Source: Mycobacterium sp. Root265 (GTDB lineage Bacteria; Actinomycetota; Actinomycetes; Mycobacteriales; Mycobacteriaceae). From it: 64,000 bases of DNA. The notes below the pieces were generated by a model. The model saw only the letters and a list, made by a program, of their open reading frames with translations. It was not told the origin of the DNA and searched no databases. The first letter of the stretch is position 1. Each line of letters starts with the position of its first letter. The stretch covers positions 625,010-689,009 of the forward strand of contig NZ_LMJA01000031.1 of assembly GCF_001428895.1 (NCBI RefSeq), read 5' to 3'. The position numbers and the translations under genes are program-made. Below are positions 753-19,549 of the stretch, piece by piece.

Positions 753-1376
753 CTATCCGAGGCCGGTCAGCGCTCGAATCGACGCGGTCGACATCATCAC
801 GACGATCTCTTCTTGGTCCAGTCCCTTGTTCAAAGTCGCCACCGAGTTGAGCATCGAGAACACCGCCTGCGTCAACAGGCGGACCTGTGGTTCGGACAGG
901 TCTGGGCGTAGCCGGAGGACAACCAGAATCCATTCGTGCGCATATAGGTTCATCTCACGTCGAATCCGTCGCTGATCCGATACGGGAACGGCGTGCTCGT
1001 TCTTCAGGAAGATCAGCGTTCTCGGCGGGCCGGTTATCACCGATCTGACATGAAGGTCGACCATTGCCGCCAGCGCGGCGCCAGGATCCGATTCCGCGGC
1101 AGCGGTCGCCCGAGCGAACCGATGAAGCTCCTGTAGCCCCTCTTCGACCACCGCGATGAGCAACGCCTGCTTGTTCTGGAAGTGTCTATACAGACCTGGG
1201 CCGGAAATACCCGCCTCCGTCGCCACCATGCCGACCGTAACCGAGTCGTACGGGTGGCGCAGGAACAGCTCGGCGGCAGCATCGAGAAGCAGCTTCCGGC
1301 GCGAGCCACGGGGATGCGGATCACTCGTCCGCATGAGCGGGGCATCAGTCCCGATGGATGCTGCCGACGTTGCCAT
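753..1376 (-). CDS. TetR family transcriptional regulator (copy 1 of a duplicated regulator)
   Basis: About 207 aa. An N-terminal TetR helix-turn-helix is visible (LLLDAAAELFLRHPYDSVTV, then the GLYRHFQNK recognition-helix end), followed by an all-helical ligand domain. The ATG at 1376 is preceded by GGAAGGGCAGG; an in-frame ATG at 1400 has no clear ribosome site. It is divergent from the LLM monooxygenase operon and is strikingly similar along its length to the TetR at 11715 (shared YDSVTVGM, GLYRHFQNKQA, LIFLKNEHA, RLLTQ.VFSMLN). The arrangement suggests a repressor of the divergent operon released by a ligand such as a CoA ester; that role is inferred. A copy of the shared sequence element lies 40 bases upstream of its start. 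Confidence 0.85.
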   Translation of the reverse strand: MATSAASIGTDAPLMRTSDPHPRGSRRKLLLDAAAELFLRHPYDSVTVGMVATEAGISGPGLYRHFQNKQALLIAVVEEGLQELHRFARATAAAESDPGAALAAMVDLHVRSVITGPPRTLIFLKNEHAVPVSDQRRIRREMNLYAHEWILVVLRLRPDLSEPQVRLLTQAVFSMLNSVATLNKGLDQEEIVVMMSTASIRALTGLG

Positions 1377-1415
1377 AAGCGCCTGCCCTTCCGTCTGCAT
1401 GTTTATGCAGAGGCG

Positions 1416-1430
1416 ACTACGTTAACATCA
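1416..1430. promoter_or_regulatory. candidate TetR operator in front of TetR copy 1
   Basis: ACTACGTTAACATCA contains the same TACGTTAA core found in the two mirror promoters at 1543-1562 and 11456-11475. Its centre GTTAAC is palindromic. It sits between the regulator and the divergent operon, as expected of an autoregulatory site. Binding is inferred from sequence recurrence only. Confidence 0.45.
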
Positions 1431-1520
1431 GGAAGCGCGGCCGTGGACTGCAACCGGGCGCCTGCGCCTCACCAATATTGCTGTACAACAAGGCTACAGG
1501 GCGCATAAATCGTCCGAGGG

Positions 1521-1562
1521 TTGACAGTGAAGCGACCGAGCCTTACGTTAATGTCGATTCAC
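1521..1562 (+). promoter_or_regulatory. promoter with embedded operator for the LLM monooxygenase operon
   Basis: A perfect -35 TTGACA (1521-1526) is followed after 17 bases by TACGTT (1544-1549) as -10. The -10 lies inside TTACGTTAATGTCGATTCAC (1543-1562), a 20-base block repeated with one mismatch in the mirror promoter at 11456-11475. An operator covering the -10 would allow simple repression by the flanking TetR. Predicted transcription start is near 1556, leaving a leader of about 27 bases. Confidence 0.65.
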
Positions 1563-1582
1563 ATTGGAAGGAGATAAAAAGC

Positions 1583-2785
1583 ATGAGGTTCATATTCATG
1601 AGCGAGGGTGAGACAGCCCCTGGCGCCTCGTACGAGCACCGCTATCGTGAACTCATCGACGAAGTGCTCCTCGCCGAGGAGGTGGGCTTCGATGCGTTCG
1701 GCACTTCAGAACAGCATCTGGCCATCGGCACCGCCAGCACGTCCGCACCTGAGGTGTTGTATCCATACCTGATGGCCCTGACCAGCAGGATTCGGTTTGT
1801 TCACCTGGTCACCCTGCTTCCGACACGCATCAACCACGCGATCCGCGTCGCCGAGCGGTTGGCCACCGAAGACGTCCTGTCCAACGGTCGGGTCGAACTC
1901 GGTGTCGGGCGGGGAAATACCACGCTCGCGTTGCGCGCCTTCGAGGTGTCGCCTTCCGAGAACAAATCGCAGCAGCTCGAGGGGATCGAAGTGATCCGCC
2001 GCGCACTGCACAACGACGTCTTCTCCTTTGTCGGCGAACACTACAAGATCCCACCTCGCAGTCTGGTTCCCAGGAGTATCCAAACGCCCTATCCCCCCAT
2101 CCACATGGCTACCGGCAGCCCAGAATCGGTCTGCGCGGCAGCCGAACTCGGGATCGGGGCGATCGTAGGCGGCTTCTACCTCGGCTTCGACTTCGTCGAG
2201 AACATGATTCGTCGCTACGACGATGCGCTGGCCTCGGCAACGCACACCTATCCGGTACAGGCCGAGCGACTGGTAGCGATCGGCGGAGGCATGCACTGCG
2301 CGGAAACCCGTGAGGAAGCCCGCACCTGGGCGCGCGGACTCAAGGAGACAGTCGGCCTGTCCACTGACGCCTACGAACGACTCTCGAAGCTCTCGAGCGA
2401 TTACCAATACATGGGCGCAGTAAAGCATCTGGATTTCGGCGACGAACGCTACATGTTCGAAGATTCGTCCGGTTTCATCGTCGGCGACCCCGACGATTGC
2501 ATTGCCCAGGTCCAACGTTTCGCCGACCTTGGAGTCGACTCACTGGTGATGCGGATCGACGGCCTGCCGCACAGGGAACTCATGAAGTCGATTGAACTGT
2601 TCGGGAAGTACGTGATCCCGAAGTTCAAGAATCCGCGTGGAATAGCGCGCACTCCCGAGGCCATCCTGGCCGATATTCGCGACGCCCGACCCGCACATTA
2701 CGCCGAACGAGAAGCATTCGAGGAGAACATGAATCACAAGCAACCAGCAATCAGTGGTGTCGGCGCCGGCGCGGGTGAGGCGTGA
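1583..2785 (+). CDS. LLM class flavin-dependent oxidoreductase (luciferase-like monooxygenase)
   Basis: 400 aa. The bacterial-luciferase-like TIM barrel is recognisable: TSEQH near residues 41-45, and GRVELGVGRGN near 101-111, a phosphate/flavin-binding signature of the family. The start at 1583 has a strong GGAAGGAG ribosome site 6-7 bases upstream; an in-frame upstream extension to 1478 would run through the promoter and is rejected. First gene of the operon. The flavin reductase encoded five genes downstream could supply reduced FMN, making a two-component monooxygenase; that pairing is inferred from context. The C-terminal 60 residues are an extension beyond the barrel. Confidence 0.88.
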   Translation: MRFIFMSEGETAPGASYEHRYRELIDEVLLAEEVGFDAFGTSEQHLAIGTASTSAPEVLYPYLMALTSRIRFVHLVTLLPTRINHAIRVAERLATEDVLSNGRVELGVGRGNTTLALRAFEVSPSENKSQQLEGIEVIRRALHNDVFSFVGEHYKIPPRSLVPRSIQTPYPPIHMATGSPESVCAAAELGIGAIVGGFYLGFDFVENMIRRYDDALASATHTYPVQAERLVAIGGGMHCAETREEARTWARGLKETVGLSTDAYERLSKLSSDYQYMGAVKHLDFGDERYMFEDSSGFIVGDPDDCIAQVQRFADLGVDSLVMRIDGLPHRELMKSIELFGKYVIPKFKNPRGIARTPEAILADIRDARPAHYAEREAFEENMNHKQPAISGVGAGAGEA

Positions 2786-3636
2786 TGACCAACCTCAACG
2801 GCGACGACATCTTCGCCCGCTATCCGAAAGAGTTCCTGATCGAGCGTAAACCCAACGGCGTTCTATTGATAACCCTCAACAGGCCTGAGCATCTCAACGC
2901 GCTCACCATGCCGATGTTCGAATTGATGGGTGACCTACTGCTCGATGTCGAGCGAGATCCGCAGACACGAGTCGCCGTCATCACCGGTGCCGGCCGCGGA
3001 TTCTGCACAGGGATGGATGTCGCACAACCGGATCCATCGCTCGAAGACGCGATCGTGCTCATGGAGACCGAACGCAAGCGCATAATGGCGACGCTGAGCA
3101 TGGACAAGCCGATCATCTCGGCGATCAACGGGCCAGCCGTCGGCTGGGGTCTGTCGCTGGGGCTGCTCGCCGACATCAGTATCGCCGCCGAAGACGCCGT
3201 TCTCATGGACGGACACACGCGCGTCGGCGTGGTCGCGGGGGACCACTCATCACTGATCTGGCCGCTGCTCGTCGGCATGGCCAAGGCGAAGTACTACCAG
3301 CTCACCTCCGCACGAATGACCGGTGCCGAAGCCGAACGCATCGGCTTGGTCAGTCTCGTGGAGCCTCGAGAGAAGGTGCTCGAACGTGCCTTGGCGATCG
3401 CTGACGATCTCGCGCTGGGCTCGCAGCGCGCCATCCGATGGACCAAACGCTCACTGAATACCGGCTGGCTCACCAATGCTCTACCGCAGCAGGAACTCTC
3501 GGCCGCACTTGAAACCCTCAATTTCGCGGGCGCCGACTACCTCGAGGCGCGGCAGGCCTTCCGGGAGAACCGGCCCACGCGGTTCCCTTCTGCACACGGT
3601 GATCAGCCTGCACCGGCAATGGAACCAGTCAACTGA
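2785..3636 (+). CDS. enoyl-CoA hydratase/isomerase family (crotonase) protein, His at first catalytic position
   Basis: 283 aa from the ATG at 2785, whose first base is the last base of the preceding TGA (a GTG at 2782 is the alternative); GGTGAGG precedes it. Crotonase fold: LITLNRPEHLNAL, the oxyanion-hole stretch GAGRGFCTGMDV near residues 70-80, and the second oxyanion segment INGPAVGWG. By eye, the position of the usual first catalytic Glu (PEI.LGL in crotonase) reads DGHTRVGV, i.e. His. This is a recurring actinobacterial subgroup and the reaction may not be hydration. It acts on a CoA thioester, probably one made by the ligase encoded two genes downstream. Confidence 0.85.
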   Translation: MTNLNGDDIFARYPKEFLIERKPNGVLLITLNRPEHLNALTMPMFELMGDLLLDVERDPQTRVAVITGAGRGFCTGMDVAQPDPSLEDAIVLMETERKRIMATLSMDKPIISAINGPAVGWGLSLGLLADISIAAEDAVLMDGHTRVGVVAGDHSSLIWPLLVGMAKAKYYQLTSARMTGAEAERIGLVSLVEPREKVLERALAIADDLALGSQRAIRWTKRSLNTGWLTNALPQQELSAALETLNFAGADYLEARQAFRENRPTRFPSAHGDQPAPAMEPVN

Positions 3637-3638
3637 CG

Positions 3639-4445
3639 ATGGCTGAGACATCCTCCGTCCGTACCCCAGGGCTGACATGCGACGACCACTCCGGTGTCCT
3701 TGTGGTCAGCATGGATCATCCGCCCGCGAATGCGTTGAACAACAGCCTCGTCGCCAGTCTGTGTACGTTCTTCACCGAACTGGCTTCTCAAGCTGCACCT
3801 GCGCCGGTGGTCCTCACCGGTGCAGGTGAGCGCTTTTTCACAGCCGGTGGTGACATCAAAGAGCTGGAGGGCACCGGCCCGGCCGAAATCGAAGGGCGGA
3901 TGCGGGACTTCCACGCATTGCTCGTCGCACTGGATCGGTTCCCCCGTCCACTCGTGGCCGCCGTCAACGGGCACTGCGTCGGAGGCGGGATGGAACTGGC
4001 GCTGTTCGCCGATACCGTCCTGGCGACGCCTCACGCGAAGTTCGGCTTTCCGGAGATCAATCACGGCCTTCTACCCGCGGACAAGGGACTCCAACGGGCT
4101 GTGCGCATTCTCGGTGCTCGCGCCGTCCGTTCAATGGTCCTCTCCGGGAACCTTTTCTCCGCTGACGAGGCCGTCAGGATCGGCTTGGTCGAACGCCTCG
4201 AAGACAGCGACACCTTGCTCGACTCGGCGATCGAGGCAGCGCGCTCAGCCGGCATGAAGGCGCCGACCCTCTATCGCGCACTCAAACGCAGCGTGAACGA
4301 TCCGGACGGCACGCGCGATGAGCGGTCGTTGGCGAACACGATCAGTGCCGCCAAGGAGTACTTCGAGGATCCCGTCGCCGCGGGCTTGCGCGCCGGCTGG
4401 AACCGCGGCAAGGCCTCGACCGGCCGCCATCCGACAGACCAATAG
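3639..4445 (+). CDS. enoyl-CoA hydratase/isomerase family protein (crotonase)
   Basis: 268 aa. Crotonase family with oxyanion-hole residues in GAGERFFTAGGDIKEL (near 64-79) and VNGHCVGGGMELAL. Unlike its upstream neighbour it keeps the catalytic-type FGFPEINHGLLPA segment with Glu. It starts two bases after the upstream stop, so the two crotonases are translationally linked and may act in sequence or as a mixed complex. Expected to hydrate or isomerise an enoyl-CoA; true substrate unknown. Confidence 0.85.
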   Translation: MAETSSVRTPGLTCDDHSGVLVVSMDHPPANALNNSLVASLCTFFTELASQAAPAPVVLTGAGERFFTAGGDIKELEGTGPAEIEGRMRDFHALLVALDRFPRPLVAAVNGHCVGGGMELALFADTVLATPHAKFGFPEINHGLLPADKGLQRAVRILGARAVRSMVLSGNLFSADEAVRIGLVERLEDSDTLLDSAIEAARSAGMKAPTLYRALKRSVNDPDGTRDERSLANTISAAKEYFEDPVAAGLRAGWNRGKASTGRHPTDQ

Positions 4446-4479
4446 CAACATCAAGCTCGCCAAAAGACGAAGGCAGACA

Positions 4480-6390
4480 ATGGTCGTACAGAGAGCTTCC
4501 CGGACAGACGCGCCGAATCACGACAGCCCCGGCACAATCCCTGTCCTGCAGAGTGTTCACAATTTCGAGGCCTCGCCACGAACGTTCAGCCAGATGCTGG
4601 TCGATCGGGCTGCGCAGGAACCGGACACCGTGGCGTTTGCCTCATGGCAGCATGGCGTCGCCTGCTCGACCACGTGGCGCGATTACCTGGGCGAAGTCGA
4701 GCAGGTGGCCATCGGCTTGCACGAGCTCGGTGTCAGAGCGGGTGATCGAGTCGCGATCATGTCCTCGACCCGCCGTGAATGGGTCATCGCCACCATGGCG
4801 ATCCACAGCCTCGGCGCGATCCTTGTCGGGGTGTACCCGACCAGTTCGGCCACCGAGGTGGCGCGCGTCCTCCAGATCAGTGAGGCGACGGCAATCTTCG
4901 CCGAGACCGAATCAGATCTCGACAAGGTGGCCTCGGCTGCGCCGGACACACCGCACCTTCGGATCGCAGTCGGGATCGAGTGCACCTCGACCGAACTGCC
5001 CGAAACCATTCGGGCAACCGATTGGCGGACGCTGCAGAAGGTGGGATGGGCGCGGGCGGCCGCCGAGCCGAACCTGTTCGACGACCTGGTCGAGGGTGGC
5101 AATGTCGATCACCCCGCAGTACTGTTCTGGACCTCGGGCTCCACCGGAGATCCCAAAGGGGTCATACACACCCATCGCTCGCTGCAGTACTCGGTGCTGG
5201 CGTTCGCGATGGCCTACCCGGAGATCGGCCGCGTACGACACGATGCGGTTGCGTTCCTGGGACTTTCACACGTCGCACCGGCCCTGGTCAACGTCTTCGT
5301 CCCGGTCATGACGAAACTGGTCGTGACCTTCTGCACAGCGGAAGAGCGCCTGCCCGTGCTCACAGCAGTCCGACCGACCGCGATCGTGTGGCCACCGCGG
5401 ATGTACGAGAAGTTGGCCGGCGAACTGCTCGAGCAACTCCCGAAATCCGGACCGCTGTTCCGTGCTCGCTACACCGCGGCGATGGCAGTCGCGCGCGCTG
5501 TCTGCGCCCGTCGCTGGAACGACAAGCCGCTGAACAGGTTACTCGATGTGCTGAATCGCCTCAGTGTGCGGACTGTCTTCATGCCGCTACGGTCGACCTA
5601 CGGAATGGACCGTATCCGGGTCAGCTGGACCTCGTCGGGAGCCATGACGCCCGAGGTCGCGGCGCTGTGGCAGATGTGGGGCGTCGACCTACGCGAGATG
5701 TACGGGACGACCGAAACCTGCGGCCCGGTTCTCGTGCAGTGGGAACGGTCCTTCTATCCGGTGGGCACCGTCGGCAAATCCTTGCCCGATTCGCGGTGGT
5801 CCGTCCGGGTCAGCGAGGACGGCGAGTTCCAGGTCAAAGGCCCATGTCTGTTCACAGGGTACTGGCGTGGTGCTGCGGCCACCGATTCGACGCTGACCGG
5901 CGATTGGTACGGCACTGGGGATCTCGTCGAGATCGCACCCGACGGAGAGGTCGCCCTCATCGGCCGCATCAAGGACGTCCTCAAGACAAGTGGAGGAAAA
6001 TCCGTCAGTCCGCAGCCCATTGAGGTGCGGCTGAAGGCCAGCCCTTTGGTCGACGAGGCGATCGTGGTGGGTGAAGGCCGCAAGTACCTGACCGTCCTGC
6101 TCAGCGTCAGTGAGGAGGCGAAGGCGATGCCGGCACCCGAGCAACGGGCGGCCATCAACGCCTGGATCGAGGAGGTCAACGCCGAACTGGCCCGACCGTT
6201 GCAGCTGAAGAATTTCCGAGTTCTGCCGCGAGCTCTGTCGGTCGATCTGGGCGAGCTCACGCTCAAATCGACCATCAGACGCGGCACTATCCTCACTTCG
6301 TTCGCCGACCTCATCGATGAGATGTACGAAGCACACGAGCTCGATCAGATCGCCGGCCATGCTCGCCTGTCACGGTCCGGCAATGGCTGA
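4480..6390 (+). CDS. long-chain-type AMP-forming acyl-CoA synthetase (ligase copy 1)
   Basis: 636 aa, the length of ACSL-type ligases. The ATP loop TSGSTGDPKG is at residues 218-227, the YGTTET adenylation motif near 407-412, GTGDL near 479 and the C-terminal KTSGGK lysine motif near 502-507. It converts a carboxylic acid, ATP and CoA to acyl-CoA, AMP and PPi. The ATG at 4480 follows GAAGG; an upstream extension to 4318 overlaps the crotonase and lacks domain support. It is clearly paralogous over its whole length to the ligase encoded at 9245-11152. Operon position suggests it activates the acid processed by the LLM enzyme and the crotonases. Confidence 0.9.
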   Translation: MVVQRASRTDAPNHDSPGTIPVLQSVHNFEASPRTFSQMLVDRAAQEPDTVAFASWQHGVACSTTWRDYLGEVEQVAIGLHELGVRAGDRVAIMSSTRREWVIATMAIHSLGAILVGVYPTSSATEVARVLQISEATAIFAETESDLDKVASAAPDTPHLRIAVGIECTSTELPETIRATDWRTLQKVGWARAAAEPNLFDDLVEGGNVDHPAVLFWTSGSTGDPKGVIHTHRSLQYSVLAFAMAYPEIGRVRHDAVAFLGLSHVAPALVNVFVPVMTKLVVTFCTAEERLPVLTAVRPTAIVWPPRMYEKLAGELLEQLPKSGPLFRARYTAAMAVARAVCARRWNDKPLNRLLDVLNRLSVRTVFMPLRSTYGMDRIRVSWTSSGAMTPEVAALWQMWGVDLREMYGTTETCGPVLVQWERSFYPVGTVGKSLPDSRWSVRVSEDGEFQVKGPCLFTGYWRGAAATDSTLTGDWYGTGDLVEIAPDGEVALIGRIKDVLKTSGGKSVSPQPIEVRLKASPLVDEAIVVGEGRKYLTVLLSVSEEAKAMPAPEQRAAINAWIEEVNAELARPLQLKNFRVLPRALSVDLGELTLKSTIRRGTILTSFADLIDEMYEAHELDQIAGHARLSRSGNG

Positions 6391-7258
6391 GCCGGCATTC
6401 GCGGGCCACACCGGCCAGGAGTTACGGATCGAGCGGATGACCAGCGGTGAGGTGGCAGCTGCGATCGAGGAGGGCGCACGCACCGCGATCCTCCCGCTGG
6501 CCGCCGTCGAACAGCACGGCCCCCATCTGCCCCTGGCGACGGACGCCGATCATGCCGACGAACTCGCCATATGCATCGCGCGCGAGCTCGGTGATGCTCT
6601 GGTACTGCCCACGGTCAGAGTCGGGTACTCGCCGCACCACCTCGGTTTCGCGGGAACCCTGTCGCTGCGGGCCTCGACGCTGGAGGCCATCTGCGAGGAC
6701 TACGGTGCCCATCTGGCCGATTCGGGATTCAGAACACTCGTGCTTTTCTCCGGGCACATCGGAAACTATCCGGTGATGCGCGAATTCGAGGCGCGCCTCG
6801 CCGCCAAACTCGCTCCGCTGTCGGTGATTACCTTCACGGGTAGTGAGGCGATTCTCGATGCTTGGCGTGCGGCCGCGGAGTCCTCCGGCCACGGGGGCAG
6901 CGTCGGCGGGCACGCCGATATCGCCGAGACGTCGGTCATGCTCGTGCTGCACCCGGAACGGGTGCGCGCCGACAAGCTGGTCCCCGGATACCAGGTCCAT
7001 ACCGACGATGCGTTTGTCGCACGTCTGCTTGCCGATGGCCTGAAACCCATTTCGCCCAACGGGATCCTCGGTAACCCCGTCGGAGCCAACACTGCGATCG
7101 GTCGTGCCTGTCTCAACGCGGTCACCAGTCTGATCGTGGACTACGTCCGCAGCCGGGCAGAGCCGCTTCGCCCGGTGCACCAGCGTCCCAAAGCACACCG
7201 CTCTGCTTTCACTGAGGAAGATGAACATGAACGCGCTCACCCAGATCCGCTCCACTGA
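6383..7258 (+). CDS. creatininase family metal-dependent hydrolase
   Basis: 291 aa from ATG 6383, overlapping the ligase gene by 8 bases. The family metal-site signature EQHGPHLPLATD is at residues 43-54 (Glu43, His45 and Asp54 as likely ligands), with FSGHIGN near 122-128 (His125) and GHADIAETS near 176-184. Family members hydrolyse cyclic or small amides (creatinine, formylated intermediates) or take part in mycofactocin maturation (MftE). No mycofactocin genes are nearby, so hydrolysis of an amide or lactone in the operon's pathway is more likely, as an inference. The C-terminal 30 residues are charged and probably disordered. Confidence 0.82.
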   Translation: MAEPAFAGHTGQELRIERMTSGEVAAAIEEGARTAILPLAAVEQHGPHLPLATDADHADELAICIARELGDALVLPTVRVGYSPHHLGFAGTLSLRASTLEAICEDYGAHLADSGFRTLVLFSGHIGNYPVMREFEARLAAKLAPLSVITFTGSEAILDAWRAAAESSGHGGSVGGHADIAETSVMLVLHPERVRADKLVPGYQVHTDDAFVARLLADGLKPISPNGILGNPVGANTAIGRACLNAVTSLIVDYVRSRAEPLRPVHQRPKAHRSAFTEEDEHERAHPDPLH

Positions 7259-7751
7259 CGCTGCCCACGACGCGTCGAGACTGCGCAAGCTATACGGCCG
7301 GTATCCGACCGGCGTGGCCGCCATCTGTGCACTGCGCGACGGCGAACCGGTGGGGATCGTGGCCACCTCATTCACCCCGGTGTCCATGGAGCCCGCCTTG
7401 GTATCGATTTGCGTGCAGCACACATCGACGACGTGGCCGCATCTCTCTCGAGAAGAGCATCTCGGGATCTCGGTACTCGCCGCGGGACACGCAGAATTGT
7501 CGCGTCAACTGGCGGCCAAGAACACCGATCGCTTCGCCGGGCTGACGTGGTTCGCCAGCGACTCCTCCGCGGTTTTCCTCGCCAACGCAGCGGCGTGGTT
7601 CGACTGCCGGATCAGCACATCCATCACCGCGGGTGATCATGATGTCGTTCTGATGGAGATCATCAGTGCAGCCGAAGATGACACCGTATCGCCATTGATC
7701 TTCCACAACAGCCATTTCCGATCCATTCACACCGATGACCAGTCCCGGTAG
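7227..7751 (+). CDS. flavin reductase-like (FMN-binding split-barrel) protein
   Basis: 174 aa from ATG 7227, which has GAGGAA seven bases upstream; the ATG at 7221 is too close to that site. Flavin-reductase-like domain: YPTGVAAICALRDGEPVGIVATSFTPVSMEPALVS is the typical N-terminal flavin pocket (positions 24-58), with the later FDCRISTSITAGDHDVVLMEI strand. It would reduce FMN or FAD with NAD(P)H and pass it to a monooxygenase, most simply the LLM enzyme of the same operon. It overlaps both neighbouring genes, indicating tight translational coupling. Confidence 0.85.
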   Translation: MNALTQIRSTDAAHDASRLRKLYGRYPTGVAAICALRDGEPVGIVATSFTPVSMEPALVSICVQHTSTTWPHLSREEHLGISVLAAGHAELSRQLAAKNTDRFAGLTWFASDSSAVFLANAAAWFDCRISTSITAGDHDVVLMEIISAAEDDTVSPLIFHNSHFRSIHTDDQSR

Positions 7752-9195
7752 GACCCGACTTCGCGCTGAGCTGCTGCCTCGCGAGGAACAGTCGGCCTGG
7801 AAGATCGCCGAGCTCGCCGCCGACCCCGCGGCGGTACCCGTCGAGACCAAGACCATGGTGGTCAATCGCATCATCGACAACGCTGCGGTTTCGGCCGCCT
7901 CGGCACGCCAGCCTTCCGTGACCGTCGCGCGTGCCCAGGCACGCGTCCACCGATCGACGCCTGGGGCTGCCATCTTTGGGATCGAAGACACCTACTCACC
8001 CGAATGGGCCGCCTTCGCCAACACTGTGGCGACCCATGAAATCGAGTTGCACGATGTGTATCCGGCCGCCGATGACATGCACCCTGGGGCCAACATTCCC
8101 GCTCTGGTGGCCGTTGCCCAGCACGCGGGTTTAGGTGGCACCGATCTGGTCAACGGAATCGCCACCGCCTACGAAGTGCAGATCGCGTTGGCCCGTGGTA
8201 TCCGTCCGAACCACAGCCTGATCGATCCCGTCGGACTTCTCGGTCCGTCGGTGGCGGCGGGCCTGGGCACGGCTCTGCGGCTGTCGCCCGAGACAATCTA
8301 TGCCGCGATCGGTCACGCGGTACATCTGACTGGCGTCGGCCGTCGCTGCCATCCGAGTCCGAATTCGAGGCGGACGGGCTATGCGGCCGCCTACGCCGGC
8401 AAAGTCGCCATCGAGGCGATGGACCGCGCCATGCACGGTGAACGCCACCCGACCCCACCAGAAGAAGCCAACGACTGCGGATACGACTGGCTGTCCACCG
8501 GATACGGCCACCCGGTGCGACTACCCAAATCGGGGGATCCGAAGATCGCCATCCTCGACAGCTCTCCCAGAGCGCACTGCGCGGCGTACCCGGGTCAAGC
8601 ATGGATTGATCTGGCCTTGAGGATGCGGAATCGAATCAGCCGGCTCGACGCAGTCGAGTCCATCGTGCTGCACACCGGTCATGATGATCAATCGGGGGTG
8701 GTCAGCGGCACGAGCCGGACTCGTACGTTGGGTCCTCCCGTATCCCGGGAAGCACTCGGCAGTTCGGTGGTGTACATGTTCGTTGTCGCACTGCAGGACG
8801 GTGTTTGGCATCACGAACATTCGTACGCACCGGAGCGATCTCATCGGCCTGACACCGTTGAACTGTGGCAACAGATCTCCGTGGCCGAGGGTGTTACCGA
8901 AATGGGCCTAGGCGCAAGGGCAACAATCACCACGAAGTCCGGTGGTGTGTTCGTCGATGAGCTCACCGTTCCCGATGCGCACCCGTCGGGCGCACGCCCG
9001 TTTCAGCGCAGGGATTACATCGCCAAGTTCACCGAGCTGGCCGAAGGCATCATTGACCGGCGGGAGCAGCAGCGCTTCCTGGACGTGGTCACCTGCCTGA
9101 GCGATCTGAAGCGGGGTACGTTGAACATGCTGAATCCGCTTCTGAGCCGCGACTTCCTGGACAGTGCACCCATAACTCACGGTATTTTCCGGTGA
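7735..9195 (+). CDS. MmgE/PrpD family protein (2-methylcitrate dehydratase-like)
   Basis: 486 aa, the usual length for the MmgE/PrpD fold. The family region FANTVATHEIELHDVY (near residues 97-112) followed by HPGANIPALVAVAQ, and the central GLGTALRLSPETIYAAIGHA helix pair, are characteristic. Characterised members dehydrate 2-methylcitrate or isomerise hydroxy acids such as itaconate/aconitate. No methylcitrate cycle genes (prpB, prpC) are adjacent, so it probably handles another hydroxy acid here. It overlaps the reductase gene by 17 bases and is the last gene of the operon. Confidence 0.83.
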   Translation: MTSPGRTRLRAELLPREEQSAWKIAELAADPAAVPVETKTMVVNRIIDNAAVSAASARQPSVTVARAQARVHRSTPGAAIFGIEDTYSPEWAAFANTVATHEIELHDVYPAADDMHPGANIPALVAVAQHAGLGGTDLVNGIATAYEVQIALARGIRPNHSLIDPVGLLGPSVAAGLGTALRLSPETIYAAIGHAVHLTGVGRRCHPSPNSRRTGYAAAYAGKVAIEAMDRAMHGERHPTPPEEANDCGYDWLSTGYGHPVRLPKSGDPKIAILDSSPRAHCAAYPGQAWIDLALRMRNRISRLDAVESIVLHTGHDDQSGVVSGTSRTRTLGPPVSREALGSSVVYMFVVALQDGVWHHEHSYAPERSHRPDTVELWQQISVAEGVTEMGLGARATITTKSGGVFVDELTVPDAHPSGARPFQRRDYIAKFTELAEGIIDRREQQRFLDVVTCLSDLKRGTLNMLNPLLSRDFLDSAPITHGIFR

Positions 9196-9244
9196 GCGTG
9201 CTTGGGTGGCGGTGGTCGTATTCGGAGACGACGGCCCCGGCGGC

Positions 9245-11152
9245 CTACCGCTTCCGGTTCGGCTTGGCGTACCGCACCTCGCGGGCGATCGCGTCGAGAT
9301 CTCCGCCGTCGTACATTTCATCGACGAGATCGCCGAACGATGCAAGGATGACCGCCCGCCTGATGGTGCCCTTGGCTGTCAGTTCGCCTGCCGACACTGA
9401 CAATTCCCGCGGGAGGACTCGATACTTCTTGAGCTGGTGAGGCCGTGACAACTCGGCGTTCACCTCGTCGAGCCACCCGCTGACAGCGTCGTCGAGTTCT
9501 TGTGCGGTCAGTTTCGTGGCTTCCTGGCTCACGCTCAACAACACCGAAAGGTACTTCCGCCCGTCGCCCACGACGATCGCCTCATCGATGAGAGGGGCGG
9601 CCTTGAGCCGCACTTCGATCGGCTGCGGGTTCACCATCTTGCCCCCGCTGGTTTTCAGAACATCTTTCAGTCGGCCGATGATCTTCACTTCCCCGTCGGA
9701 TGCGAGCTCGGCCAGATCCCCCGTGCGATACCAGCCGTCCGACATCGCGGCCGTGGATGCTTCGGGATTCTCCCAGTAACCGACAAACAACGAGGGACTG
9801 CGTAGCTGCAACTCACCTTGGGCGGAGACTCGCAGCTGCCAGCGGGGGTCCGGTAGACATTTGCCGATGGTGCCCGGGGCAGGAAAGGAGCGGTCCCACT
9901 GTGCCAGCACCGATCCGCATGTTTCAGTGGTGCCGAACAGCTCTCGAAGGTCGAGGCCCCATATGTGCCAGAGTGCGGCCACATCCGGGGTCATGCTCCC
10001 GGACGCCGTCCAGGTCACCTGGATGCGATCCATGCCCACTTTGCCCAGCAGTGGGACGAATACCATCTTACGAGTCAACCCATCGGCCGCCCGGACATAC
10101 CAGGGCAATTCCCGTTGCTGCCAGCGCCGAGCAGTGATCGGTCTAGCGACGGCCATCGCCACGCGGTAGCCGAGTCGGAACATCCCGCCCGATTCCGAGA
10201 CTGCGTGCAGCACTTCGGCGGCCAGCTTCTCGTGCATACGCGGCGGCCAAAGCACGGCGGTGGGTCGCACGCTGATAAGTGCGGCGAGCCGTTCGTCGAT
10301 GCTGCAATGGGTGATGACCAGTCGGGTCATGATCGGCGCGTACACCGCGATGAGAGCCGGCGCAACGTGCGACATTCCGAGGAATCCTACGAGATCGTGG
10401 CGAGTGCGCCCGAGATCGGGATAGGACATGGCGAAGCCGAGCACCGAGTACTGGATCGTCCGGTGCGTGTGAGTGACACCCTTGGGTGCGCCCGTCGAAC
10501 CCGAGGTGTAGAACAACCCCGCGGGTTGATCGATATGACCCGCCTCGACCAGTCCTTCGAAGAGCGCGGGATCGCTGGCGGCCAGCCGACGGCCATCGGC
10601 ACGCAGTTGCTCCCACGTTGTTGCTGCGACACCGTCCGCCAAGCCTGCCGGATCGGCGTCGAGCCCGACGGCGAGTCGCAAATGGTCTGGTTGGGGCGTC
10701 AGCGAAGCCAACTTCTCGGCGTCGTTGGCTGTTTCGACAACTATCGCGGTGGCACGGCAGTTGTCCAGGACGTGCCGGATCTCCGCGAGTGAGCTCGTCT
10801 GGTGCACACCTACCGGGATGCCCCCGACGCTGAGGATCGCCAGTGCCGCGACCACCCACTCATGTCGGGTACCAGCAAGGACTGCAACGCGATCACGCGT
10901 TCCGATGCCGTGTCCATGCAAACCGAGCGCGATCTCACGAACTTCATCGAGATAGTCGCGCCAGGTACTCCGGCGCATTGCGCCACCCGACCAACTCTGA
11001 AAGGCGACCGTGTCCGGCTCGAACCGTTCCCGGTCGCAGAGCAGCTGCGGGAAAGTCCGGTCGACGGCCTCGAACGCAGCCACGGACGAAAGCACCGGCA
11101 CACCGGCACTTCTACCGGCACTCGGCGGTGTCATATTGAAATTCTCGCCCAT
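9245..11152 (-). CDS. long-chain-type AMP-forming acyl-CoA synthetase (ligase copy 2)
   Basis: 635 aa. ATP loop TSGSTGAPKG at residues 216-225, then FGTTETCG, RTGDL and KTSGGK motifs in order. It aligns without large gaps to the ligase at 4480-6390 (shared WPPRM.EKLA, FLG.SHVAPAL, KYL.VLLSVS), so the two are paralogues from one duplication. ATG 11152 has GAGGAA eight bases upstream. It converges on the operon end and is transcribed alone from a promoter matching that of the operon, with a leader of about 310 bases. Two ligases may widen acid specificity; this is inference. Confidence 0.9.
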   Translation of the reverse strand: MGENFNMTPPSAGRSAGVPVLSSVAAFEAVDRTFPQLLCDRERFEPDTVAFQSWSGGAMRRSTWRDYLDEVREIALGLHGHGIGTRDRVAVLAGTRHEWVVAALAILSVGGIPVGVHQTSSLAEIRHVLDNCRATAIVVETANDAEKLASLTPQPDHLRLAVGLDADPAGLADGVAATTWEQLRADGRRLAASDPALFEGLVEAGHIDQPAGLFYTSGSTGAPKGVTHTHRTIQYSVLGFAMSYPDLGRTRHDLVGFLGMSHVAPALIAVYAPIMTRLVITHCSIDERLAALISVRPTAVLWPPRMHEKLAAEVLHAVSESGGMFRLGYRVAMAVARPITARRWQQRELPWYVRAADGLTRKMVFVPLLGKVGMDRIQVTWTASGSMTPDVAALWHIWGLDLRELFGTTETCGSVLAQWDRSFPAPGTIGKCLPDPRWQLRVSAQGELQLRSPSLFVGYWENPEASTAAMSDGWYRTGDLAELASDGEVKIIGRLKDVLKTSGGKMVNPQPIEVRLKAAPLIDEAIVVGDGRKYLSVLLSVSQEATKLTAQELDDAVSGWLDEVNAELSRPHQLKKYRVLPRELSVSAGELTAKGTIRRAVILASFGDLVDEMYDGGDLDAIAREVRYAKPNRKR

Positions 11153-11455
11153 CAGATCTGTTCCTCGGAGAAATTCGACAGTTTACGGCCGGGTACCGTA
11201 AAACGACTTGCGGTTGTTCGCCAGCTTCCTGGCACAGGACGTGATCGATTGTCGCCGTGTCGTTCTCCCGTAAACCTCTTGCGCGGCCCACGTCGACACC
11301 GAGCAGCCTGGGTAGTACCGGTCAACGCGAACCGAGCGGCACACGGGATGGTGATCCTCCCAGAACGCGTCGATCCGCACTGCCTCGCAGGAACGCACAC
11401 CGCCGAGAACGGCTGCCGGCCGTCGCCTGACCGGGTACTGCGAGAACTGCGAACA
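11153..11455 (-). other. long untranslated leader of ligase copy 2
   Basis: About 300 bases lie between the predicted transcription start (near 11462) and the ligase start. A 94-codon open frame (11183-11467) begins at an ATG inside the promoter block, upstream of the likely transcription start, and has no recognisable domain. No hairpin or riboswitch-like pattern was evident. It may be the decayed remainder of genes present in the other copy. Confidence 0.35.
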
Positions 11456-11497
11456 GTGAATGGACATTAACGTAATTCGGTGGCGATGGCTTGTCAA
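11456..11497 (-). promoter_or_regulatory. mirror promoter/operator of ligase copy 2
   Basis: Read on the minus strand: TTGACA (11497-11492), 17 bases, TACGTT (11474-11469), inside TTACGTTAATGTCCATTCAC (11475-11456). Spacing, both hexamers and 19 of 20 bases of the block equal those at 1521-1562. The core ACGTTAATGT is an imperfect palindrome (8 of 10 positions), as expected for a TetR operator. Confidence 0.65.
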
Positions 11498-11611
11498 CTG
11501 TTTGTCTCCGATCGGTCCACAGTCAGACACGTAAGACCAGTTCCGAGAGTCTACAGACGGAGCTGACGGGCCTGCTGGTCGGGTTCGCCCTCTTGCCGTG
11601 AACTACTGTTC

Positions 11612-11631
11612 TAATATTAATGATGAGTTAC
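11612..11631. promoter_or_regulatory. possible degenerate operator upstream of TetR copy 2
   Basis: TAATATTAATGATGAGTTAC matches the promoter block of 1543-1562 at about 13 of 20 positions, including TTAATG..GA.T.AC, and lies in an AT-rich island upstream of the TetR gene. It could be an autoregulatory site; the match is weak and could be chance. Confidence 0.25.
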
Positions 11632-11714
11632 TTCGCATCGTCATATTCGCCTCTGCGGGCCCCGCCGAGGTGCGCACCCCGAACGGCACGTACAGACTGG
11701 ATATCGTAATCGGC

Positions 11715-12308
11715 ATGACTGAAGACCGACCCCGCGCGCAAGGCTTTCGGCGAGAGCTGTTGCTGAAGGTCGCTGCAGACCTGTTCTTGGAGCATCCCTA
11801 CGATTCGGTCACCGTCGGCATGCTGTGCGCGAAGGCGGGTATCTCGGCGCCAGGTCTGTACCGCCACTTTCAGAATAAGCAGGCCGTGCTCATCGCCGTC
11901 GTGGAGAACCCTATTGGTTCACTCCACGAGTTCGCCCGCAAAACTGCGGAGGAGACGACGGACCCGCATGCTGCGCTGATCTCCATGGTGGAGTTCCACA
12001 TCCGAAGCGTGGTGGAGGGGCCGCCGACTCCGCTCATCTTCCTCAAGAATGAGCACGCTCTTCCCGAGGCGGACCGACGACGCATTCGTCGGGCCATGAA
12101 TCTCTATGCCGAAGAATGGATCTCGGTGGTGGCGATCCTCCGCCCGGATTTGTCGGATCCTGCGGTGCGGCTGCTGACGCAGACGGTCTTCTCGATGCTC
12201 AATGCCGCTGCGACCCTGCACAAGGGCCTCGACCACGAGACGATCATCGCCACGATGTCGACGGCGGCCTATCAGGCTCTCACGGCATCCTCTCGACCAC
12301 GAGCCTGA
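11715..12308 (+). CDS. TetR family transcriptional regulator (copy 2)
   Basis: 197 aa from ATG 11715. N-terminal helix-turn-helix (LLLKVAADLFLEHPYDSVTV, GLYRHFQNK), with the same ligand-domain landmarks as the TetR at 753-1376. An in-frame GTG at 11598 would add 39 residues with no family match and is not favoured; no strong ribosome site is seen at 11715, so the exact start is uncertain. It diverges from ligase copy 2, mirroring the other TetR-operon pair. It probably binds the shared element; whether both repressors see the same ligand is unknown. Confidence 0.82.
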   Translation: MTEDRPRAQGFRRELLLKVAADLFLEHPYDSVTVGMLCAKAGISAPGLYRHFQNKQAVLIAVVENPIGSLHEFARKTAEETTDPHAALISMVEFHIRSVVEGPPTPLIFLKNEHALPEADRRRIRRAMNLYAEEWISVVAILRPDLSDPAVRLLTQTVFSMLNAAATLHKGLDHETIIATMSTAAYQALTASSRPRA

Positions 12309-12315
12309 TCGTGTG

Positions 12316-13470
12316 TTATTTCAAGAGCGCGCGCCCCATCACCACCCGCTGTATTTGATTTGTGCCTTCATAGATCTGGGTGATCTTGGCATCGCGCATC
12401 ATCCGCTCGACCGGAAAGTCGACGGTGTAGCCGGCACCCCCGAACAGCTGGACGGCGTCGGTGGTGACCTCCATGGCGATATCCGAGGCAAAGCACTTCG
12501 ACGCAGCCGATATGAACCCCAGGTTGGCCTCGCCGCGTTCAGCACGGGCCGCGGCGTTATACACCAGCAACCGGGCCGCCTCGATCTTCATCGCCATGTC
12601 GGCAAGCATGAATTGCACGCCTTGAAAATCACTGACAGCCCGTCCGAACTGCTTGCGTCCCGTCGTGTATGCGATCGCCGCGTCCAAAGCACCCTGAGCG
12701 ATACCGACCGCCTGGGCGCCGATGGTAGGACGGGTGTGGTCCAGAGTGGCCAACGCCGTCTTGAAGCCGGTGCCCGGCTCGCCGATCATCCGGTCACCGG
12801 GGATCCGGCAGTGCTCGAAATACAACTCGACGGTCGGTGAGCCCTTGATACCGAGCTTGCGCTCCTTCGGACCGACGGTGAAGCCTTCGTCGTCGATGTG
12901 GACGGCGAATGCCGAGATTCCGTTGGCACCCTTGTCCGGATCGGTCACCGCCATCACCGTGTACCAGGTTGATCTGCCGCCGTTGGTTATCCAGGCCTTG
13001 GAACCGTCGAGAATCCAGTCGTCACCGTCGGCTTTGGCACGCGTTCGCATGCCTGCGGCATCACTGCCCGCCTCACGTTCGGACAGCGCGTAGGAGGCGA
13101 GGTGGCCGTTCACCAGGTCCGGCAGTACCTGTTTCTTCAGGCCTTCCGACCCACGCAGGATCAACCCCATCGTGCCCAGCTTGTTGACCGCCGGGATCAG
13201 CGACGCCGAAGCGTCGACCCGGGCCACCTCTTCGATGACGATGCAGATGGCCACCGAGTCGGCGCCCTCACCGCCGTACTCCTCGGGCACGTGGACCGCG
13301 TTGAAACCCGAGGCATTCAACGCATCGAGGGCCTCTTGCGGAAATCGTGAGTTCTCATCAACGTCCGCGGCGTGCGGAGCGATCTCCTTCTCGGCGAGTG
13401 CGCGGATCGAGGCGCGCAGTTCGTGGTGTTCCTTCGGCAGATCGAACAAATCGAACGACGACTGGACCAT
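12316..13470 (-). CDS. fadE25: acyl-CoA dehydrogenase, FadE25-like
   Basis: 384 aa, near-collinear with mycobacterial FadE25 (recognised from memory: ALAEKEIAPHAA.VDE, VPEEYGG.GADSVA, YALSEREAGSDAA, VGPKERKLGIKGSPT). The catalytic-type Glu occurs in QIYEGTNQIQ near the C-terminus, as in short/medium-chain enzymes. It introduces the alpha-beta double bond into an acyl-CoA using FAD and passes electrons to ETF. ATG 13470 follows a perfect AAAGGAGG site; upstream codons to 13506 are excluded. It lies convergent and only 7 bases from the TetR stop. The E2 gene upstream on the same strand ends 77 bases away. Confidence 0.9.
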   Translation of the reverse strand: MVQSSFDLFDLPKEHHELRASIRALAEKEIAPHAADVDENSRFPQEALDALNASGFNAVHVPEEYGGEGADSVAICIVIEEVARVDASASLIPAVNKLGTMGLILRGSEGLKKQVLPDLVNGHLASYALSEREAGSDAAGMRTRAKADGDDWILDGSKAWITNGGRSTWYTVMAVTDPDKGANGISAFAVHIDDEGFTVGPKERKLGIKGSPTVELYFEHCRIPGDRMIGEPGTGFKTALATLDHTRPTIGAQAVGIAQGALDAAIAYTTGRKQFGRAVSDFQGVQFMLADMAMKIEAARLLVYNAAARAERGEANLGFISAASKCFASDIAMEVTTDAVQLFGGAGYTVDFPVERMMRDAKITQIYEGTNQIQRVVMGRALLK

Positions 13471-13547
13471 CGGTCCTCCTTTGGGCAAGGGGTGGCTGTG
13501 GCACATTCAGGTGCGGGTGTGTCGGCGATGACCGTCAATCACCTCGA

Positions 13548-14639
13548 TCACGACTCCAGACGGCTCCGTACCGCGGTCAGATAGCGCGCTGCATCGGCAC
13601 CGTCGATTGTCCGATGGTCGTAGGTAAGTGACAGGTACGCCATGGACCGGGTACGGATCAGCAATGCGCCATCGCTGTCACGTTCGGGTACAAGGCGTTC
13701 CGTGGCAGCACCAATCCCCAGGATCGCCGACTGGGGCTGGTTGATGATCGGTGTGTCGAAAAGTGCACCACGACTGCCGGTGTTGGTGATCGTAAAGGTG
13801 CCACCGCTCATGTCGTCGGGCCGTATCGAGCCGTCGCGCACCGCCGCAGCCGCCCTCGCGATGGCCGCGCCCACCTCCATGACATCGAGGTGCTGGGCAT
13901 CGCGGATCACCGGGACCATGAGACCCTTCGGACCGTCCACCGCCACTCCCAAGTGCACTGAACCGTGGTAGGTCACCTCAGTGCAGTCGGCGTTGACCGT
14001 GGCGTTGATGACGGGATGCGCTGCCAGCGCGTCGACCGCGGCTACCACGATGAAGGGCAGATAGGACAGCCGGGAGCCGGTGCGGTCGAGAAAGTCCTGT
14101 TTCATCTCCGCACGCCGCGCCGCGATCAAGCTGAGGTCGGATTCAACGACCGTCGTCAATTGTGCTGCGGTCTGGAGTGATTCGACCATTCGACGGGCGA
14201 TGGTCCGGCGAATCCGGGGCAACTTCTCAACACGATCGACCCCGATCCCAGCGTCGGGCTGCTCTGGTGATGGCGGGTGCGGAGGCGAGGAGATCGCCGA
14301 TTCCGTTGCTTCGGACGCCGGCACCGGTTCGGGTTCGGGTTCGGGAGGGGGCGGCGCACATGCATCCGCGGCCGGGGTCACCGGTGCGGAGACGTCGAGT
14401 CTCGCGATAACGGCGCCCACCGACACAACGGCGTCCTCGGCTTCCACGACTTCCAGCAAGGTGCCGGCCGCGGGGGCCGCAATTTCGGTATCCACCTTGT
14501 CGGTGGCGACTTCCAGGAGTGGTTCGTCGATTTCCACGGAATCCCCGACCGACTTGAGCCACCGGGTGATGGTCGCCTCGGTGACCGCCTCGCCCAGATT
14601 GGGCAATCTCACCGCGATGTCGTTCTCGGCAGCAGACAT
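13548..14639 (-). CDS. dihydrolipoamide acyltransferase (E2) of a 2-oxoacid dehydrogenase complex, no visible E3-binding domain
   Basis: 363 aa. One lipoyl domain (residues about 8-85, lipoylated Lys48 in TDKVDTEI), a Pro/Glu-rich linker (about 100-135), then the catalytic acyltransferase core starting at RIRRTIARRM with the active-site DHRTIDG at 341-347 (His342). The peripheral-subunit-binding domain that usually docks E1/E3 is not visible between linker and core, which makes this E2 unusually compact. The start follows the E1 stop by one base, so E1 and E2 are translationally coupled. It transfers an acyl group from E1 to CoA. Confidence 0.88.
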   Translation of the reverse strand: MSAAENDIAVRLPNLGEAVTEATITRWLKSVGDSVEIDEPLLEVATDKVDTEIAAPAAGTLLEVVEAEDAVVSVGAVIARLDVSAPVTPAADACAPPPPEPEPEPVPASEATESAISSPPHPPSPEQPDAGIGVDRVEKLPRIRRTIARRMVESLQTAAQLTTVVESDLSLIAARRAEMKQDFLDRTGSRLSYLPFIVVAAVDALAAHPVINATVNADCTEVTYHGSVHLGVAVDGPKGLMVPVIRDAQHLDVMEVGAAIARAAAAVRDGSIRPDDMSGGTFTITNTGSRGALFDTPIINQPQSAILGIGAATERLVPERDSDGALLIRTRSMAYLSLTYDHRTIDGADAARYLTAVRSRLES

Positions 14640-14640
14640 G

Positions 14641-16980: not shown

Positions 16981-17094
16981 CGAGGTCCTTGTCGGTCGGC
17001 GTCGTGTTGGAGCGGGATCGCTGCACTGGACCCAGATCATGGGTCTGCGGCCCCTCCCTGTGCGGGTCCCCGGATGAGGGTTGCCCGGCGTAGT

Positions 17095-17739: not shown

Positions 17740-17953
17740 TCGATCTGCCCAGTGATCAACGTCCTATACCTCGTTGGACTTGGCAAAATGCTCGATTTCG
17801 CTCATACCCGTTGCCCGACAGTGCAACAGGGGTATTGACTGGACAGCACTTCGTCCGACGTCCGCCGTCAGTCAGCGACGGAGGGCGGGGAAGTACACGA
17901 GCGGCTACTCCGTCAGTCGGTCAAGAGACTTTATCCCGAGGAGGAACGCCGCG

Positions 17954-19549
17954 ATGAAGGCCAGCGGGCAATCTGCGCAACTCACGTCGATGAGTTACGA
18001 ACCGTTGACGCCCACCGCATACCTCGATCGAGCGGCCAGTTGTCATGGCGACCGTGTTGCAGTGGTGGACGGTTTGAACGAATGGACCTACGAACAACTC
18101 CACCAACGGTCCGCGCAGCTAGCTGGGGCGTTGGCTCAGCTGTCGTCGGGACGGCCCGTCGCAGTGCTGGCACCCAACTCGCACGTCCTGCTGGAGTCGC
18201 ATTTCGGCGTCCCGTGGTCCGGTTCACCCCTGGTCGCCCTCAACACACGTCTCTCTGCATCTGAAATCGCCTATATGTTGGGCCATTCGGAGGCGGCAGT
18301 GCTGATCTATGACTCAACACATGCAGAGGTCGTGGAACAGGTCCGCGCCCAGATGAGCATCTCGCCGATCCTGGTGCAGGCTGACGATGGTCAACACGGT
18401 GACTACGAGCAGATGTTGTCGGCGGCCTCCCCGGTACGGCGCACGCCGACGGATGAGCTGAGCTTGTTATCTGTCAACTACACCTCGGGTACGACGGGAA
18501 AACCCAAGGGGGTGATGTATTCCCACCGTGGCGCCTACCTGCAAGCGCTGGCGATGGTCGGTCATACGGGTTTGTCCCCGTCGGCGGTCTACCTCTGGAC
18601 GCTTCCGATGTTTCACTGCAACGGGTGGTGTTTCCCTTGGGCGGTCACAGCTGCGGCCGCCACACATGTGTGCTTGCGCAAGGTCGACCCCTCGGAAGTC
18701 TGGCAACTGATCCGCCGGCACGGCGTAACTCACCTCAACGGCGCACCGACCGTGCTGTCCATGCTCGCGTACGCGGCCGAGGCGGACGCCATCGAGGGCA
18801 CCCCCGTTCGGGTCGCCACCGGCGGTGCGCCGCCTTCACCGGCCATCCTGCGGCGGATGGCGGAGCTCGGATTCGACGTCACGCACCTGTACGGACTGAC
18901 CGAGACATACGGACCCGCAGCCATATGCGACTGGCGCCCCGAATGGGACGCACTCGATCTGGAATCGCGCGCGAAGATCAAAGCCAGGCAGGGCGTCGCG
19001 AACATGATCTCCTGCGAGATTCGAGTACTCGCCGATGATGGCACCGACGTGCTCTCCGACGGCCTGAGTACCGGCGAGATCGCACTGCGCGGAAACAACG
19101 TGATGCTTGGATATCTGCATGACCTGAAGGGCACCGAAGCGGCGGCGCCCGACGGCTGGTTCCGAACTGGCGACCTGGGCGTGCGCCATCCTGACGGATA
19201 TATCGAACTACGCGACCGCAGTAAAGACGTAATCATCTCGGGCGGCGAGAACATCGCCTCGGTAGAGGTTGAGCAAGTAATCATGGAGCACTCCGCCGTC
19301 CTTGAGGTTGCAGTCATCGCGGTACCGGATCCTCAGTGGGGCGAAGTAGCGGCCGCCTACGTCGCACTCAAACCTGGCCGCGAAGCGACGGCCGAAGACA
19401 TCATCGATCACGTCCGGGCCAACATTGCGCGGTTCAAGGCACCCAAGCACGTGATATTCGGTGACCTTCCCAAGACATCCACCGGCAAGACTCAGAAGTA
19501 TCTGCTACGCGAACGCGCCTGGCACGACCGACAGAAGCACATTCAGTAG
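17954..19549 (+). CDS. AMP-forming acyl-CoA synthetase (medium-chain/DmdB-like)
   Basis: 531 aa. ATP loop YTSGTTGKPKG near residues 177-187, LYGLTETYGP adenylation motif, RTGDLG, and the C-terminal catalytic lysine region PKTSTGKTQKY. ATG 17954 is preceded by GAGGAGGAA at about eight bases. The LNGAPTVLSML and DWRPEWD segments are typical of the actinobacterial clade containing methylmercaptopropionate-CoA and medium-chain ligases. It activates a short or medium acid; the exact acid is unknown. It has its own 200-base upstream region and is not coupled to the AsnC gene. Confidence 0.88.
   Translation: MKASGQSAQLTSMSYEPLTPTAYLDRAASCHGDRVAVVDGLNEWTYEQLHQRSAQLAGALAQLSSGRPVAVLAPNSHVLLESHFGVPWSGSPLVALNTRLSASEIAYMLGHSEAAVLIYDSTHAEVVEQVRAQMSISPILVQADDGQHGDYEQMLSAASPVRRTPTDELSLLSVNYTSGTTGKPKGVMYSHRGAYLQALAMVGHTGLSPSAVYLWTLPMFHCNGWCFPWAVTAAAATHVCLRKVDPSEVWQLIRRHGVTHLNGAPTVLSMLAYAAEADAIEGTPVRVATGGAPPSPAILRRMAELGFDVTHLYGLTETYGPAAICDWRPEWDALDLESRAKIKARQGVANMISCEIRVLADDGTDVLSDGLSTGEIALRGNNVMLGYLHDLKGTEAAAPDGWFRTGDLGVRHPDGYIELRDRSKDVIISGGENIASVEVEQVIMEHSAVLEVAVIAVPDPQWGEVAAAYVALKPGREATAEDIIDHVRANIARFKAPKHVIFGDLPKTSTGKTQKYLLRERAWHDRQKHIQ

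Follow-up and report, generated by a model that had tools for sequence, protein, structure and literature searches.

The window analysed here is a stretch of 64,000 nucleotides from Mycobacterium sp. Root265 (contig NZ_LMJA01000031.1, positions 625,010 to 689,009), and at its left end, between positions 753 and 12308, lies a module of regulatory and putative catabolic genes (Table 1). A TetR-family gene (TetR1) is divergent from an operon encoding a luciferase-like flavin-dependent monooxygenase (LLM), two crotonases, an acyl-CoA ligase (ACS1), a creatininase-family hydrolase, a flavin reductase and an MmgE/PrpD-family protein, and this is followed by a second ligase gene (ACS2) and a second TetR gene (TetR2). 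TetR1 and TetR2 are probably BkaR-like autoregulated repressors placed over an uncharacterised CoA-dependent oxygenase/hydrolase pathway, which is also carried by plasmids. An earlier note on this DNA had described a mirror-image duplication of a regulator and ligase module, with a divergent operon ending in LLM, crotonase, ligase and hydrolase genes. The paralogy was confirmed by gap-free alignments, in which 127 of 191 amino acids (66%) were identical between the regulators and 354 of 621 (57%) between the ligases. The inverted, tail-to-tail layout is also real, but it need not mirror the history of the module, and the trees speak weakly against the two ligases being sisters; the divergent operon is present too, and the LLM gene stands first in it. 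Compared in inverted orientation, the two units match at the DNA level at 67% over 1302 bp, 69.5% over 501 bp and 70% over 178 bp, and since identity is just 67-70%, the duplication is old and not recent.

Both outward promoters share TTGACA-N17-TACGTT, at 1521 (+) and 11497 (-), as had been noted before, with no third copy within the 64 kb. The accompanying 20-base block was likewise recovered at 19 of 20 positions (1543-1562 on the plus strand versus 11475-11456 on the minus strand), but it is a palindromic operator-like site and not a plain 20-mer: it forms a TetR-type dyad near ATGTTAAT-N4-ATTAACAT, overlaps the -10 and is a putative repressor site. This dyad was scored on 20 promoter regions of the own genome and its relatives, 18 of them LLM regions, with L008, L049 and L050 excluded because they duplicate, or nearly duplicate, L007, L004 and L011. 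At the LLM -10, scores of 12-16 out of 16 were obtained in 16 of the 18 LLM regions (16 of 16 in L009) and of 11 in L045 and L046; in shuffled sequences the best score had its 95th percentile at 10-11. In 18 of the 20 regions TTGACA-N17 precedes a -10 of the tested form; L006 and the ACS2 region of M. canariasense are the exceptions. Further upstream, 16 of the 18 LLM regions scored have a second dyad (at least 11 of 16); the regions in which it was not found are those of the two genomes that carry the TetR2/ACS2 unit, the genome of the window and M. canariasense. The two dyads are 174-182 bp apart in 13 of the 16 two-site regions and 153, 157 or 169 bp apart in the others. Among single-TetR relatives, spacings of 157 bp (L036 and L052, G356) and 169 bp (L051, G330) were observed. 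Looping between paired operators was rejected as an established feature, because the spacings do not all preserve helical phase and because regions that are homologous do not count as independent observations.

A genome scan with a reversed control pattern is a fairer test than promoter scoring. Throughout the 6.67 Mb of the own genome, exact GTTAAT-N4-ATTMAC occurs solely at the LLM and ACS2 sites; allowing up to one mismatch, eight sites (13 rows) were retrieved, and none with the reversed pattern. Besides the LLM and ACS2 sites, these comprise a pair before a major facilitator superfamily (MFS) gene, another pair beside a BkaR-like TetR gene and two sites inside open reading frames (ORFs). 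The two within-ORF sites are lone sites on contigs C10 and C22. The MFS-side sites (C28:622662 and 622840) lie 178 bp apart, about 2.3 and 2.2 kb to the left of the first base of the window, and the site at 622840 comes after TTGACA-N17-TAGGTT and before the MFS gene (L053:11291-12730), whose closest NCBIfam model is DHA2/EmrB, with a score under the cut-off. An MFS gene with a similar start is preceded in M. canariasense by TTGACA-N17-TAGGTT and two sites 180 bp apart, a third paired promoter in G036 has two sites 173 bp apart near an MFS-family gene, and G394 carries one site between a 71% identical MFS gene and the E1 gene. The idea that one operon and two regulators make up a self-contained regulon was thus abandoned, since the genome has at least one more promoter of this design (-35, 17-base spacer, -10 and operator), before the MFS gene outside the window. 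In G238, from the same family, the repeat GTTAATAAGTACTCAC is dispersed about 30 times, with many copies paired 24 bp apart on opposite strands; it raises the operator counts in that genome and probably represents some mobile or repeat element.

The remaining pair of sites, two GTTAGT-N4-ATTAAC copies 25 bp apart, belongs to the BkaR-like TetR gene L061 (C27:96265-96912), which faces carboxylase genes. In the available part of PMC3920632, the BkaR dimer is described as binding GTTA(N)T(N4)A(N)TAAC and repressing itself and a divergent operon. The protein encoded by L061 reaches 272.1 bits on the NCBIfam model NF050111 (SACE_7040/BkaR type) and is 32% identical to TetR2. It could be this regulator, and not TetR1 or TetR2, that reads the sites, given that the same site class occurs at its own promoter and that its recognition helix SGPAIYRHFSNK resembles those of TetR1 and TetR2. 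Nevertheless, this is very improbable, as relatives hold the site between a TetR1/2-type gene and the LLM gene, exact BkaR-core matches in the own genome are limited to the pair at L061, and the right half-site of TetR1/2, ATTCAC, differs.

Table 1. Features of the module and its right flank (window coordinates).
Feature	Positions	Strand	Basis and remarks
TetR1, TetR-family regulator	753..1400	-	Pfam TetR_N + TetR_C_24; 66% identical to TetR2
-35 TTGACA, LLM operon promoter	1521..1526	+	sequence match
-10 TACGTT, LLM operon promoter	1544..1549	+	sequence match; 17 bases from -35
Operator-like dyad ACGTTAATGTCGATTCACAT	1545..1564	+	promoter scoring, genome scan; 14/16 versus consensus
LLM, luciferase-like flavin-dependent monooxygenase	1583..2785	+	Pfam Bac_luciferase
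ECH1, crotonase family	2782..3636	+	Pfam ECH_1; alignment; GVVAGD motif
ECH2, crotonase family	3639..4445	+	Pfam ECH_1; alignment; PEINHGL motif
ACS1 (ligase 1), AMP-forming acyl-CoA ligase	4486..6390	+	Pfam AMP-binding + AMP-binding_C_3; 57% identical to ACS2
Creatininase-family hydrolase	6317..7258	+	Pfam Creatininase; listed start overlaps ACS1, real start probably later
Flavin reductase, likely LLM partner	7221..7751	+	Pfam Flavin_Reduct
MmgE/PrpD-family protein	7735..9195	+	Pfam; 62% counterpart in M. canariasense
ACS2 (ligase 2), second AMP-forming acyl-CoA ligase	9245..11152	-	Pfam; 57% identical to ACS1
Operator-like dyad at ACS2 -10	11454..11473	-	promoter scoring, genome scan; 12/16
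-10 TACGTT, ACS2 promoter	11469..11474	-	sequence match
-35 TTGACA, ACS2 promoter	11492..11497	-	sequence match
Second, weaker dyad upstream of TetR2	11614..11633	.	promoter scoring; 12/16
TetR2, TetR-family regulator	11715..12308	+	Pfam; 90% identical to M. canariasense copy
Acyl-CoA dehydrogenase	12316..13506	-	NCBIfam; 71-83% homologues adjoin related clusters (L002, L004, L048, L049)
2-oxoacid dehydrogenase E2 (lipoyl acyltransferase)	13548..14645	-	Pfam
2-oxoacid dehydrogenase E1, homodimeric AceE-like	14641..17040	-	77-81% homologues adjoin cluster in L048, L049, L051
Second-type acyl-CoA ligase	17774..19549	+	47% identical to cluster-ending ligase of M. neoaurum L004; membership uncertain

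Both regulators carry a TetR_N helix-turn-helix (Pfam E 4.7e-16 and 1.3e-13), and the Bac_luciferase-domain oxygenase and the flavin reductase lie in one operon, as befits a two-component flavin-dependent LLM system. The Creatininase domain (Pfam E 1.3e-61) places the hydrolase in the creatinine amidohydrolase family; its NCBIfam scores were under the cut-offs for MftE (128 versus 172) and creatininase (106.5 versus 235). Alignment of five two-crotonase clusters revealed two kinds of crotonase, GVVAGD (GVTAGD in Streptomyces) and PEINHGL, with one each per cluster; L001 and L038 were taken with the window as examples, L038 being entered with the GVVAGD kind only. Judged by eye against M. canariasense, TetR1 likely starts at ATG 1376 or 1334 and not at 1400, and ATG 11715 appears a likelier start of TetR2 than GTG 11598. 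About 310 bases (11153-11460) separate the ACS2 ATG from its -10, compared with about 140 in M. canariasense, and no coding remnant was found in them.

A scan of genome contigs with TetR1 returned 27 loci: 11 with the LLM cluster (L001-L011) and 16 with no more than a distant TetR match. Ten of these clusters (L001-L009 and L011) have a single TetR of this type divergent from the LLM gene, L006 with a ligase fragment only; such one-TetR modules, with divergent LLM, crotonase, ligase, creatininase and flavin reductase genes, occur in Nocardia, Rhodococcus, Mycolicibacterium and Bradyrhizobium. The layout of the window is reproduced in M. canariasense L010 (LLM 95% identical, each ligase 79%, MmgE, TetR2 90%), the only other place among the loci examined where the extra TetR2/ACS2 pair turned up. 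Similarly, the MmgE/PrpD gene recurs just in L010 among L001-L027 and in none of L038 and L045-L054. A TetR match at 1e-40 or better was found in 9 of 401 genomes of the family, with two copies in this genome alone, and the LLM at 1e-110 in this genome alone of 396 from the phylum, which marks the cluster as uncommon. In Actinobacteria these genes lie together; plasmids of Bradyrhizobium, Azospirillum and Burkholderia carry a cluster of them as well, in a different arrangement. At the limits used, the plasmid collection had the LLM in 19 records and the creatininase-family gene in 12, all 12 being among the 15 LLM records listed. TrbI, CagX and TrbL-type transfer genes adjoin the cluster in Bradyrhizobium (L008:13537-17785).

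The surroundings of the cluster recur in part. E1 (77-81%) and E2 (57-60%) genes flank it in L048, L049 and L051 among the eight G-loci examined and, as read by eye, in M. canariasense L010, and the Bradyrhizobium and Burkholderia plasmid clusters adjoin annotated 2-oxoacid dehydrogenase genes. Downstream of the flavin reductase, L048-L052 carry a RibBA-like gene and a further ligase; L038 also has the RibBA-like gene, with part of that other ligase at the edge of the locus, and the genome of the window gave just a 33% RibBA match, located elsewhere. R. opacus L038 further holds, as read by eye, ABC-transporter-like ORFs between crotonases and ligase. On Arthrobacter and Pseudonocardia plasmids, 53% LLM relatives stand beside amidase, aldehyde dehydrogenase and Rid-family genes.

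The ancestral module probably had one TetR and one such ligase, and the TetR2/ACS2 pair is a lineage-specific, old and truncated second unit, tail to tail with the first. ACS1 and ACS2 each pair with their M. canariasense counterpart (support 100/100, in a tree without the 166-aa piece L006), and therefore unit 2 is older than the divergence from M. canariasense. In the best tree the two ligase pairs do not come out as sisters, and a tree constrained to make them so is worse by 12.7 log-likelihood units (p-AU 0.047). A group of TetR1, TetR2 and the M. canariasense TetR2 received weak support (51/62) in a tree from which a length filter removed both M. canariasense TetR1 pieces. Unit 2 may have arisen by duplication in place or have come from outside. 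There is a substantial chance, albeit short of an even one, that TetR2/ACS2 is the remnant of a separately acquired cluster that lost its LLM-crotonase part, with TetR2 now running both units and TetR1 being lost. The disfavoured ACS1+ACS2 clade, the lack of the second operator in precisely the two unit-2 genomes and the occurrence of homologous clusters on plasmids point in this direction, but the p-AU value is marginal, the best TetR tree joins TetR1 with TetR2, though with the support given above, and no leftover LLM or crotonase coding was found between ACS2 and TetR2 (all matches E > 0.05).

From paralogy, promoters, operator conservation and gene content, which are seen directly in the sequence, we infer the following scheme of repression, ligand, transport direction and reaction order. 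TetR1 and TetR2, as BkaR relatives, would bind the dyad and cover the -10 of the TTGACA-N17 promoters, keeping the LLM operon, ACS2 and the MFS permease gene switched off, until a pathway intermediate, most likely the acyl-CoA formed by ACS1 or ACS2, frees the repressors. An imported acid would be converted to its CoA ester by the two ligases and oxygenated by the LLM with its flavin reductase; the two unlike crotonases would process the product, the creatininase-family enzyme would hydrolyse a ring amide, a lactone or a C-C bond, and the acyl-CoA dehydrogenase and 2-oxoacid dehydrogenase would oxidise what is released. Knowledge of the family and the position of the site lead us to expect repression at the -10, a CoA intermediate as inducer and, in most relatives, autoregulation. 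A bolder version can be put forward only tentatively, namely a mobile aerobic pathway in which the LLM and the creatininase-family hydrolase would open an acyl-CoA-bound ring, BkaR-like repressors would sit on operators about 17 helical turns apart, perhaps with looping, and the second TetR/ligase unit would add a second sensor in this lineage.

The substrate would be a ring-containing acid. Amidase, aldehyde dehydrogenase and Rid-family genes occur in pyridine pathways, and their presence beside the 53% LLM relatives, together with the amidohydrolase family name, suggests an N-heterocyclic acid. LLM enzymes that act as Baeyer-Villiger oxygenases, one of them in a progesterone-type cluster according to the available part of PMC12239570, suggest a reaction of this type; that cluster was rejected as a model, no creatininase, enoyl-CoA hydratase or CoA-ligase term appearing in that part of the source. 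Abscisic-acid catabolism was also dropped as a lead, since nothing ties it to the cluster. The suggestion of a new CoA-dependent catabolic cluster held, as no description of this gene combination or its substrate was found in the literature searched, which largely left out subscription papers.

Several observations weigh against the proposed repressor scheme. The dyad consensus was drawn from the same promoters that were scored, so the scores are partly circular. TetR1 and TetR2 score 112.5 and 114.8 bits on NF050111, far below its cut-off of 250. The BkaR core with one mismatch, which is how the LLM and ACS2 sites fit it, is poorly selective, with 16+16 matches in the own genome and 9+9 for the control, and therefore the published BkaR pattern alone is no proof of the sites. 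TetR1 lies on a long branch, and the best match at its own start (9/16) is not above chance. Moreover, the M. canariasense TetR1 (G401:C45:76912-77482, L062) is in two frames, either a true split or an assembly error, and thus two working regulators are not assured. The two-frame TetR1 and the chance-level match at the TetR1 start also tell against a two-input gate, in which TetR1 and TetR2 would sense different ligands, share operators and possibly form heterodimers, so that the operon opens on the right mix of intermediates. The recognition helices are nearly identical (SGPGLYRHFQNK and SAPGLYRHFQNK), the operators are alike in both units and the 34% divergence of the regulators lies outside, all of which speaks for such a gate, but M. 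canariasense keeps both operators despite its two-frame TetR1, and we regard this alternative as unlikely.

If BkaR-like repression applies, the operator and its regulon would be a direct handle on a conserved catabolic cluster with chromosomal and plasmid-borne copies among Actinobacteria and Proteobacteria. Derepression or profiling of the regulon would reveal what the LLM/creatininase combination degrades, and the duplicated unit offers a small natural test of divergence or decay in paralogous repressors sharing one operator.

The proposed scheme resembles that of BkaR (Rv2506/MSMEG_4718), an autoregulating TetR protein with a divergent target operon and two dyad copies in the available part of PMC3920632, and the BkaR targets, of the acyl-CoA dehydrogenase, ligase and 2-oxoacid dehydrogenase type, resemble genes of this cluster. 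By contrast, TetR1/2 are associated with the right half-site ATTCAC, with dyads about 175-182 bp apart instead of 25 and with other target enzymes. The closest PDB match of TetR1 is Mce3R (9b7y), which controls mel2 (Rv1936-Rv1941), an operon with a luciferase-like monooxygenase at its head (PMC11036813, available part), so that a TetR-type repressor over an LLM-led operon is common to both systems. However, Mce3R is described as a double-TetR chain on non-palindromic sites (PMC11667970, available part), unlike the single-domain TetR1/2 with palindromic candidate sites. TetR1 (215 aa) and TetR2 (197 aa) contain one TetR_N each, with no double-TetR arrangement of the Mce3R type. The flavin reductase of L001 and L004 has a RibBA-like gene behind it, and mel2 contains RibA; mel2 is not known to contain counterparts of the ligase, crotonase and creatininase genes of this cluster. 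Enzymes that cleave the pyridine and trigonelline rings are two-component LLM/flavin reductase systems. No characterised LLM matched closely (best PDB match 84.6 bits), and this operon has no Rid or aldehyde dehydrogenase gene, unlike the neighbourhoods of the 53% LLM relatives on plasmids. The LLM and flavin reductase are nevertheless what this cluster has in common with two-component systems, including type II Baeyer-Villiger enzymes, to which it adds ligases, two crotonases and a creatininase-family gene.

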